Of a DNA stretch of 64,000 nucleotides, positions 41,738 through 44,702 are shown in pieces (positions within the stretch are counted from its first letter, which is position 1; each line of letters starts with the position of its first letter). The notes under the pieces were generated by a model. The model had not been told where the DNA came from, made no database searches, and saw only the letters and a list, made by a program, of their open reading frames with translations. The translations under genes were made by a program, and so were the position numbers. The DNA comes from Halorubrum ezzemoulense DSM 17463 (GTDB taxonomy: Archaea; Halobacteriota; Halobacteria; Halobacteriales; Haloferacaceae): positions 1-64,000 of the forward strand of contig NZ_NEDJ01000003.1 in NCBI RefSeq assembly GCF_002114285.1, read 5' to 3'.

Positions 41738-43158
41738 TCAGTCGTCGTCCGCCGCGGGGGCCCGGTTCCGGATCTCGATCCGTCCCTCAATTTCGGGGGC
41801 GATCCCGTGTTCGCGGGCGTAAGCGGCCAACACCTCGTACTGGATGTCCGCCTCGTCGACCCGATGACGCTGGCCGAGCGTCGGGTACTCGTGTTCGGAG
41901 TGGAGCAGGTACTCCGAGACGGCGACCGTGTAGCGCGCGTCCGGGTCGATGGGCTCGCCCCCGACGGTGGCTTCTAAGACCAGTTCGGCGTCGTCGTCCC
42001 AGACGACCCGGGCGTTCGAGACGTGGCCGTGCCACCAGTCGTCCTCGCCGAAGTCCACGTCGGGGGCGGCCATCTCGCGGAACACGTCGCTGAGCTCCGC
42101 GCCGGTGACCGACGCGAGCGCCACCGGCTCCTCGAACGGGATCAGGCTGATCAGGTCGGCCTTCGTCACGTCGCCCGTCCACGGGTCGCCCTGGCGGAGC
42201 CCGCCCGCGTTCGACAGCCCCACGTCGGCGTCGTGGACCCACCGGAACGCGTCCGCGACGAAGTTGCCGACGCGGCACTCCCCGCCGTGGACCACGTCGC
42301 CGGACCGCTTGATCGGTCGGTCGACGGTGTCGACGGTCTCGTCGAGGTCGGCCGCGGCCATCCGCTCGGCGAGCGCGTCGGCGAGCCCCGGCGCGGGGTC
42401 GGCCCCGTCGGGCTCGTGGAGCGTCGCGGTCGGCGGCTCGGAATCGAGGTCGATCTCGGCCACCGCCTCGCCGTTGACGCCGGGTCGGACGAGCAGGGTA
42501 TCGTCGACGACCTCGTTCCGACGGCTGTGGACGTGGCCGCCGGCGATCGCGTCGACGTCGAGCTCGCGGGCGAGGTCGTCGTCGCCCGCGCCGAGGTGCG
42601 GAGGACGACGACGTGATTGAGGCCCTCGTCGCCGCCTCCGCCTCTCTCGCGCTCGGCGACCGCGGCGCGCATCTCGGCCAGCGCGTCGCGCGCGGCCGAG
42701 ACGGGGTCGTCGAACGAGAGGTCGGCGGCCATGGGGTTAAGCGAGTCCGTCGCGGGGTCGGTGACGCCGACGAACCCGACCGTCTCGCCGTCGACCTCGC
42801 GGGTTGCCCACGGGACGACGCCCTCGTCGCGGCCGAACGGCTCGCCGGCCTCGCCGCGGACGTTCGCGGAGACGAACGTCGCGGGCGAGTCGGCGACGAG
42901 GCCGCGGAGCGGGTCGGGACCGTAGTCGAACTCGTGGTTGCCGAACGTGTCGAGGGCGGTGTCAGTCACCTCGTAGAAGTCGAGGACCTGCCTGCCCGTC
43001 GCGACCAGCGAGAGGACGCCCGGCGCGGTCGTGTCGCCGGTGCCGACGACCGCGGCGTCGGGGCCCGAGAGCGCTCGGATCCGGCCGGCGAGGCGCGCCG
43101 CTCGCTCGGGGGCGTCGAAGACGTTCTCGATGTCGGAGTAGTGAACGAGGCGGACCAT
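41738..43158 (-). pseudogene. Metallophosphatase/5'-nucleotidase family gene broken by a one-base deletion
   Basis: Two frames together encode a complete calcineurin-like/5'-nucleotidase protein of about 473 residues. The N-terminal part starts MVRLVHYSDIEN and includes GNHEFDYG. It continues to LNHVVVL and then falls out of frame near 42600. In the next frame the protein resumes at HLGAGDDDLARELDVDA with the metal motif GGHVHS. The C-terminal nucleotidase domain follows (SNAGGLRQG, ending near 41738). Inserting one base between 42600 and 42601 would restore LSHLGAG. All metal-binding motifs are otherwise preserved, so the lesion is either very recent or a sequencing error. Neighbours are dacZ and the L7Ae operon. 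Confidence 0.85.
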
Positions 43159-43313
43159 TCGTCGAGTCGACTGAGGGGCGAGCGACGCATAAAAAGCGCG
43201 GAGTGTCGCCGGGTCCGCCGCGGGCGGTGCGACGGCGACCGCGGTACGGCCGGTCCTGCCCGCGATCTCGCCCCGTGACTCCCGCTCGCACACGCGCGAG
43301 ACATTGAAAGCGC

Positions 43314-43319
43314 TTTTAT
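43314..43319 (+). promoter_or_regulatory. TATA box of the L7Ae operon
   Basis: TTTTAT is the best TATA element before rpl7ae and would start transcription near 43342. That leaves a leader of about 90 bases, unlike the leaderless genes around it. Confidence 0.55.
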
Positions 43320-43358
43320 GGATGTCCTGACTACCACGGGGCACAGCCTCTGTGGGGT

Positions 43359-43402
43359 TGATGATGTGCCGTTCCGTTAGGGACCGACCACGGGACGGGC
43401 AC
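43359..43402 (+). promoter_or_regulatory. Structured 5' leader of the L7Ae operon (possible L7Ae feedback element)
   Basis: GTGCCGTTCCG (43366-43376) pairs with CGGGACGGGCAC (43391-43402) to form an 11-bp stem with one bulged G and a 14-base loop. A TGATGA box, like box C of a kink-turn, precedes the stem at 43359-43364, and GA lies just 3' of it at 43405-43406. L7Ae is itself a kink-turn-binding protein, so feedback control is a reasonable hypothesis. A GGAGGA Shine-Dalgarno site (43415-43420) follows. Confidence 0.5.
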
Positions 43403-43434
43403 GCGAGCCCGCACGGAGGATAGGTGAACAACAT

Positions 43435-43797
43435 ATGCCCGTTTACGTAGACTACGACACCCCGGCGGACCTCGCGGAGCGATCCCTCGAAGCGCTCGAG
43501 GTCGCCCGAGACACCGGTACCGTGAAGAAAGGAACCAACGAGACCACCAAGGCCGTCGAGCGCGGCAACGCGGACCTCGTCATCGTCGCCGAGGACGTCT
43601 CCCCCGAGGAGATCGTGATGCACCTCCCCGAGCTCGCCGAGGAGAAGGGGATCCCCGTCGCCTTCGTCGACACGCAGGACGAGGTCGGCCAAGCCGCCGG
43701 CCTCGAGGTCGGCTCGGCCGCCGCCGCCGTCGTCGACGCCGGCGACGCCGACGACGATGTCGAGGACATCGGCGAGAAGGTCGCGGAGCTCCGATAA
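43435..43797 (+). CDS. rpl7ae: 50S ribosomal protein L7Ae
   Basis: A 120-residue RNA-binding protein of the L7Ae/L30e family. It binds kink-turns in 23S rRNA, box C/D and H/ACA guide RNAs and RNase P. The motif [30 protein letters not shown] is the classical contact region (shown in part: [12 protein letters not shown]). The C-terminus is acidic. It begins an operon with rps28e (six bases later), rpl24e and ndk. Its leader carries a strong stem and a TGATGA box, and a GGAGGA Shine-Dalgarno site lies 14 bases before the ATG. Confidence 0.97.
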
Positions 43798-43803
43798 CCT
43801 CCC

Positions 43804-44028
43804 ATGAGCGCAGAAGAGGGCACCGGCGACTCGACGACCGCGGAGGTCATCGAGGTCGTCGGCAAGACCGGGATGCACGGCGAGGCCATGCAGGTCAAGT
43901 GCCGCATCCAGGAGGGATCGAACCAGGGCCGGATCATCACCCGGAACGTCCTGGGTCCCGTCCGTCTGGGCGACGTGCTCCAGCTGCGGGAGACCCAGCG
44001 CGACGCCGACTCCATCGGAGGCCGATAA
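43804..44028 (+). CDS. rps28e: 30S ribosomal protein S28e
   Basis: A 74-residue OB-fold small-subunit protein. The conserved [19 protein letters not shown] stretch and the C-terminal [24 protein letters not shown] are diagnostic. The N-terminus has a short acidic extension. It lies between rpl7ae and rpl24e with gaps of six and three bases, so it is certainly co-transcribed. Its size and position are those of the standard archaeal L7Ae operon. Confidence 0.97.
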
Positions 44029-44031
44029 CCA

Positions 44032-44226
44032 ATGGTCGAGACACGCACCTGCGATTACAGCGGTGAGGAGATCGAGCCCGGCACGGGCACGATGTACGTG
44101 AAGAAGGACGGACAGATCCTCCACTTCGTCGACTCGAAGGCGGAGAAGAACTACTTCCTCGGCCGCGAGGCGCGCGACGTCGAGTGGACCGAGGAGGGTC
44201 ACCGGGCCGGAGGCGACGAGCAGTGA
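44032..44226 (+). CDS. rpl24e: 50S ribosomal protein L24e with degenerate zinc motif
   Basis: A 64-residue large-subunit protein. The family core [14 protein letters not shown] and the following [18 protein letters not shown] identify it. L24e normally binds zinc through four cysteines (CxxC and CxxxC). Here only the first remains, in TCDYSGEEI; the second is Ser, and the later pair reads FVDSKAEKN with no cysteine. The rest of the fold is kept, so it is probably still a working ribosomal protein that no longer needs zinc. The stop overlaps the ndk GTG start (GTGA, 44223-44226). Confidence 0.95.
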
Positions 44227-44702
44227 GCCACCACGACGAGCGCACCTTCGTGATGGTGAAGCCCGACGGCGTCCAGCGCGGTCTCATCGGCGAGATCGTC
44301 TCCCGCTTCGAGGAGCGCGGGCTCAAGCTCGTCGCCGGGAAGTTCGTCCAGCTCGACGAGGATCTCGCGAAGAACCATTACGGTGAACACGAGGACAAGC
44401 CGTTCTTCGACGGCCTCGTCGAGTTCATTACCTCCGGCCCCGTCTTCGCGATGGTGTGGGAGGGCGCGGACGCGACCCGGCAGGTCCGCGCGATGGTCGG
44501 CGAGACCGACCCCGCCGAGTCCGCCCCGGGCACGATCCGCGGCGACTTCGGCTTAGACCTCGGCCACAACGTGATCCACGCGTCGGACCACGAGGACGAG
44601 GGCGCGAACGAGCGCGAGATCGACCTGTTCTTCGACGACGAGGAGCTCGTCGACTACGACCTCGACACCGCCGCGTGGGTGTACGAGGACGAATCTCACT
44701 GA
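44223..44702 (+). CDS. ndk: Nucleoside-diphosphate kinase
   Basis: A 159-residue NDK that transfers phosphate between nucleoside tri- and diphosphates through a phospho-His. The catalytic His lies in [15 protein letters not shown] (near residue 118), and [18 protein letters not shown] opens the fold. It carries the acidic C-terminus of halophilic NDKs. GTG 44223 is chosen because it overlaps the rpl24e stop by four bases and gives MSHHDERTF, the usual haloarchaeal start. It ends the L7Ae-S28e-L24e-Ndk operon. Confidence 0.96.

Follow-up and report, generated by a model that had tools for sequence, protein, structure and literature searches.

The DNA analysed here is a window of 64,000 nucleotides from Halorubrum ezzemoulense DSM 17463, in which rpl7ae, rps28e, rpl24e and ndk form an operon (Table 1). 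The leader of this operon comprises 93 nt (43342-43434), in agreement with the leader of some 90 bases that had been proposed for rpl7ae in the original prediction. In the leaders of 165 relatives the TATA box is separated from a conserved (T/C)ACA by 22 to 24 nt; 13 further matches fell outside this range and were mostly leaders with long insertions or cases in which the pattern had been mis-set. Given this fixed spacing, transcription of the Halorubrum operon is predicted to start at about 43342, at the foot of the basal helix P1. The start is thus expected at the first bases of the leader; a start downstream of the stem, which would have spoken against the prediction, is not indicated. A divergent gene on the minus strand has its ATG near 43160, about 270 bp from rpl7ae (region 43158-43200); it is preceded by a TATA-like TTTTTAT of its own and apparently has almost no leader.

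Table 1. Features of the rpl7ae operon and of its leader in the window
Feature	Position	Strand	Evidence or remark
TATA box TTTTAT, rpl7ae operon promoter	43314..43319	+	sequence and fixed spacing to the leader
Conserved YACA, predicted first transcribed bases	43342..43345	+	distance to TATA box; kept in leader alignments
P1 (basal helix, C-helix), 5' strand	43347..43358	+	9 of 12 P1 pairs vary on both sides
TGATGA	43359..43364	+	bulge UGAU 43359-43362, Kt-b GA 43363-43364
P2 (NC-helix and extension), 5' strand	43366..43375	+	3 bp + 7 bp; covariation
Apical segment GTTAGGGA	43376..43383	+	consensus NNNAGGGA / CACAGGA; variable insertion after it in relatives
P2, 3' strand	43392..43402	+	one-base bulge at 43399
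Kt-n GA	43405..43406	+	A43406 invariant; 43405 is G in 79/89, A in 10/89
P1, 3' strand	43407..43419	+	bulged purine at 43411; terminal GGAGG is SD-like
Shine-Dalgarno (SD) AGGTGA	43422..43427	+	shortly 3' of P1
rpl7ae (eL8)	43435..43797	+	PF01248, E = 8.8e-26; presumed effector
rps28e	43804..44028	+	PF01200; operon gene 2
rpl24e	44032..44226	+	PF01246; operon gene 3
ndk	44223..44702	+	PF00334; operon gene 4; start approximate

The leader can be described as two helices separated by a kink-turn motif. The upper helix is the 11-bp stem that had been recognised before (43366-43376 with 43391-43402); it is present with one bulged G (43399), its last pair being the one that 43376 can additionally form with 43391 to extend P2. 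The TGATGA on its 5' side and the GA on its 3' side were likewise found as described, as was a Shine-Dalgarno site, the region of which consists of GGAGG (43415-43419) followed by AGGTGA, the most frequent SD form (66 of 126 leaders). The basal helix P1 (12 bp), which encloses the kink-turn motif, had been overlooked. The predicted fold has an energy of -45.9 kcal/mol (z = -4.5; none of 200 shuffles was as good), and the median predicted for long leaders is -48.6 kcal/mol, as compared to about -17 kcal/mol for the short leaders described below, which are shorter sequences. In a single sequence a loose kink-turn pattern by itself does not exceed chance, with 20 occurrences on the plus strand of the window versus 12 to 18 in Markov-shuffled copies; the case for a kink-turn leader rests on conservation and covariation. 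Two other pairings were noted. The minimum free energy fold of the window pairs the 5' YAC with the SD; this is not supported, since YAC also persists in leaders that have no GUG in the SD. The SD part GUGAAC (43424-43429) can pair with codons 3-4 (GUUUAC, 43441-43446), which would place the AUG in a loop; in other lineages these codons read GUAUAC or GUCUAC and are mismatched to GUGAAC, so the pairing is possibly due to chance.

Leaders were gathered from 80 named genomes and from whole genomes, and a covariance model was built from 37 of them. This model scores the window leader at 88.1 bits, the next match in the same genome reaching 15.5 bits, and leaders whose apical insertions run to tens of bases are recovered as well. 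Applied to 393 genomes sampled across the phylum, the model matches 90 of the 91 Halobacteria, with one strong match per genome, and a comparison of the best matches with the L7Ae coordinates places them in the L7Ae 5' UTR, adjoining the start codon. Matches outside the Halobacteria in this sample were few and weak and were not near L7Ae (G323, G547, G497, G527 and G333). Both the stem and the TGATGA are thus kept among relatives. A search of Rfam with the leader gave no match. The record titled Halobellus captivus ZY8 has a Halorubrum-type L7Ae (93%) and leader (L025), unlike strain ZY21 (L059), and is probably mislabelled.

A covariation search of the haloarchaeal leaders, which had been proposed as a check, shows that the stems covary. 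In an alignment of 90 distinct rows 17 of the 22 proposed pairs vary on both sides; among them are 8 of the 9 that form the main P2 helix, besides those of P1. Of all cells 93.1% are paired, against 80.3% after shuffling and 36 to 47% in slid controls, and two-sided cells number 204 against 54.5 after shuffling. Such pair counts are biased by the fitting of the alignment to a related structure, but a MAFFT alignment already displayed the substitutions, for instance GC, CG, AU and UA at one P1 pair. We also applied a phylogeny-aware null, in which substitutions were redistributed along the leader's own tree and all of the approximately 4000 column pairs were ranked. The P1 pairs rank at the top: 9-76 exceeds every null value, and 11-74 and 12-73 have E = 0.05 and E = 0.1 over all pairs. 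Pairs 26-61, 14-70, 25-62, 30-56, 27-60 and 32-54 also rank high, and rescaling by simple arithmetic to the 22 proposed pairs alone brings E for the nine high-ranked pairs below about 0.03. Although the ranking is good, it is not clean, as the non-structural pairs 11-31 and 31-74 are interspersed. A pseudoknot received no covariation support in the phylogeny-aware analysis of the leader alignment.

A kink-turn requires GA on each of its strands, whereas a full CUGA box D is unnecessary. In the numbering of the alignment the bulge occupies positions 18-21 (UGAU), followed by G22 and A23, with G65 and A66 on the opposite strand. U21, G22, A23 and A66 (U43362, G43363, A43364 and A43406) are invariant in all 89 distinct leaders, and position 65 is an A in about 11% of these. 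The tandem G.A pairs are thus provided for by GA on both strands, and both flanking helices, C and NC, are supported by covariation. The earlier view that the kink-turn is imperfect for want of a CTGA is not borne out, CGA being an allowed form; leaders of the Halorussus/Haladaptatus type do carry a true CUGA opposite the TGATGA. The commonest bulge, UGAU or CGAU, counts 4 nt rather than 3 if a U.G pair closes the C-helix. Bulges of 3 nt (CAU, CGU) also occur (L050, L054, L141-L145, L045, L053, L169, L176 and L183), and in L050 the U.G of the C-helix is replaced by C-G. An extra base beside the GA is usual on the second strand. Leaders of the Halobacterium type (L126-L132, L054 and L039) have AA for GA on that strand, and hence A.A as the second pair.

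The likeness to box C/D RNAs deserves separate attention, since the UGAUGA has the sequence of a box C and a CUGA stands opposite to it in some relatives. It could be argued that a box C/D-type small RNA, acting in trans as a methylation guide, lies upstream of the leader or is processed from it, the more so as PMC5852579 places a predicted small RNA of Haloferax mediterranei between rpl7AE and the gene next to it. We consider this very improbable: a C'/D' pair is lacking, what lies between the boxes is a covarying stem and not a single-stranded guide, a search of Rfam returned no C/D RNA, and the position of the leader is locked to the TATA box and the AUG. A box C/D register using the full CUGA was tried, and did not yield a proper C-helix. 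The predicted intergenic small RNAs beside H. mediterranei rpl7AE, HM9_V and HM10_V (PMC5852579), may be pieces of the leader.

The spacing of the elements is nearly constant. Among 127 distinct leaders, 125 have 15-16 nt between the start of P1 and the Kt-b GA, and 121 have 15-16 nt between this GA and the loop GGA, whereas the apical part, counted together with the 3' strand of P2, spans from 18 to 102 nt in the same set; Kt-n lies 24-30 nt from the AUG. The loop GGA (columns 40-42) is found in 84 to 87 of 89 leaders. The conservation of the NNNAGGGA/CACAGGA segment nearly equals that of the kink-turn, and lineage-specific insertions of tens of bases come after it. A hairpin formed by the P2 5' strand (UCCU) with the AGGGA loop was discarded: its pairing is barely above that of shuffled sequences, it shows a single covarying pair and it fails in Halorubrum.

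The apical AGGGA/CAGGA segment could match the anti-SD and serve as a standby site. Instead of being an L7Ae switch, the leader might accordingly serve as an element of structure or stability, or as a standby site for the ribosome, such that the exposed SD-like loop or the stable hairpin aids loading or shields the 5' end of the mRNA. The conservation of the loop agrees with this explanation, as does the predicted stability of the hairpin without protein; we nevertheless regard it as clearly unlikely, since it leaves unexplained why U-G-A and A are invariant at the exact kink-turn positions in the mRNA of L7Ae, and why deep lineages and methanogens have a different, shorter kink-turn hairpin at this place.

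We propose, with a probability of about 0.8, that the leader is a cis-acting ribosomal-protein leader through the kink-turn of which L7Ae represses its own synthesis, because the comparative evidence agrees with published work in other archaea. The feedback on its own mRNA that had been suggested thus gains support, binding being presumed. The rpl7ae mRNA would open with a hairpin consisting of P1 (12 bp), the kink-turn (bulge UGAU and tandem G.A pairs, GA with GA), P2 (3 + 7 bp) and the AGGGA loop. L7Ae in excess of its sites on rRNA and guide RNAs would bind the kink-turn and lock the hairpin. P1 is expected to end within or just before the SD, roughly 12-18 nt from the AUG, where the small ribosomal subunit is expected to have its footprint; the subunit could then not load, so that synthesis of L7Ae, and probably also that of the co-transcribed S28e, L24e and NDK, would fall. 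Since the leader is predicted to be prefolded and P1 ends inside that footprint, we suggest that L7Ae acts as a clamp, stabilising P1 against opening by the ribosome. As to the protein itself, N33 and E34 are the two kink-turn contacts of Archaeoglobus fulgidus L7Ae (PMC6298567), and their counterparts are expected to lie in the GTNE of Halorubrum L7Ae.

Several points argue against such feedback. Prediction gives a hairpin that is very stable on its own, while the switch of A. fulgidus depends on an RNA that is unfolded as long as L7Ae is absent; the core SD AGGTGA lies outside P1 and not inside it; and the core shows the 4-nt bulge as its commonest form, the extra base beside the GA and the occasional A for the second-strand G. 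A rather unlikely variant is a geometry switch peculiar to the core Haloarchaea, in which both arms (P1 of 12 bp, P2 of about 11 bp) would always be formed and L7Ae, by folding the kink-turn, would lay P2 along P1, bringing the AGGGA loop to the ribosome-binding site or to the foot of P1. Such a switch would account for arms of constant length and a loop at constant distance despite varying sequence and apical insertion. The leader might also be read by S28e, L24e or a partner such as Nop5, L7Ae merely being a co-binder. The operon does encode three ribosomal proteins, and much of the RNA (the AGGGA loop and P2) is superfluous for a kink-turn; but the invariant bases are those of the kink-turn, and the archaeal precedent is L7Ae acting on its own mRNA (PMC5539422), which makes another reader quite improbable.

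Autoregulation of L7Ae through leader kink-turns is already known in other archaea (Daume 2017, Huang 2019). L7Ae represses via leader kink-turns in Sulfolobus acidocaldarius, and a response to it was likewise seen with the leader regions of A. fulgidus, M. acetivorans and others (PMC5539422). The haloarchaeal leader shares with these systems the gene, the kink-turn logic and the presence of the SD in the leader. For Haloferax volcanii, Daume 2017 (PMC5539422) identifies both strands, Kt-b and Kt-n, and points to a Kt-b strand lying further upstream in the alignment; high leader conservation is stated for the Sulfolobales only, and the main text contains no haloarchaeal structure. The Haloferax reporter used there comprised no more than about 50 bp. 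The Haloferax leaders collected here are about 124 nt long and have Kt-b about 100 nt from the AUG, and by this measure the reporter cannot contain the true Kt-b strand. What goes beyond that account is the 12-bp P1, P2, the conserved AGGGA loop, the covariation and the predicted start at the 5' edge.

The A. fulgidus leader, of which a crystal structure and probing are available (Huang 2019, PMC6298567), consists of a short stem with weak pairing, which stays unfolded unless L7Ae is present, and its SD is placed inside the C-helix. In the haloarchaeal leader, by contrast, both arms are long and predicted to be stable, and the SD core is located 3' of the C-helix. The archaeal S15, eL15 and L4 leaders (Eckert and Weinberg 2020, PMC7247131) are likewise conserved and covarying, and one S15 form occurs in Halobacteria, but none of them lies upstream of L7Ae/eL8; some mimic rRNA. 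Box C/D guide RNAs share with our leader the UGAUGA and, in some relatives, the CUGA, but not the fixed position or the covarying stem between the boxes. Mimicry of the L7Ae site of 23S rRNA, which we take to be Kt-15, was considered and dropped, as the organism's own 23S has no clear sequence resemblance to the leader beyond the kink-turn fold.

With Kt-n 24-30 nt from the AUG and the SD core outside P1, the haloarchaeal leader is a variant of, and not a standard, L7Ae autoregulatory leader. Provisionally, its architecture appears to be new, no description having been found in the main texts of the open-access literature. The new part appears to be the 12-bp basal helix, which puts the kink-turn well upstream of the AUG, together with an AGGGA loop at constant distance.

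Finally, the long leader is absent from three haloarchaeal genomes (G019, G038 and G292, with leaders L164, L195 and L196) that represent two families branching deeply within the same order, and also from the methanogens examined. The two deep families and several methanogens have a short kink-turn beside the SD instead, as in GCGU-AAU-GA-CGCGC...GCGCG-GA-ACG-AGGUG, where the second strand enters the SD. From this distribution the long leader looks like an elaboration within the core Haloarchaea. A well-supported structured leader is thus found over a ribosomal-protein operon in almost all haloarchaea sampled, among them the genetically tractable Haloferax, and it appears that an ancient regulatory RNA was probably rebuilt there, from a short kink-turn beside the SD to a long two-armed RNA.
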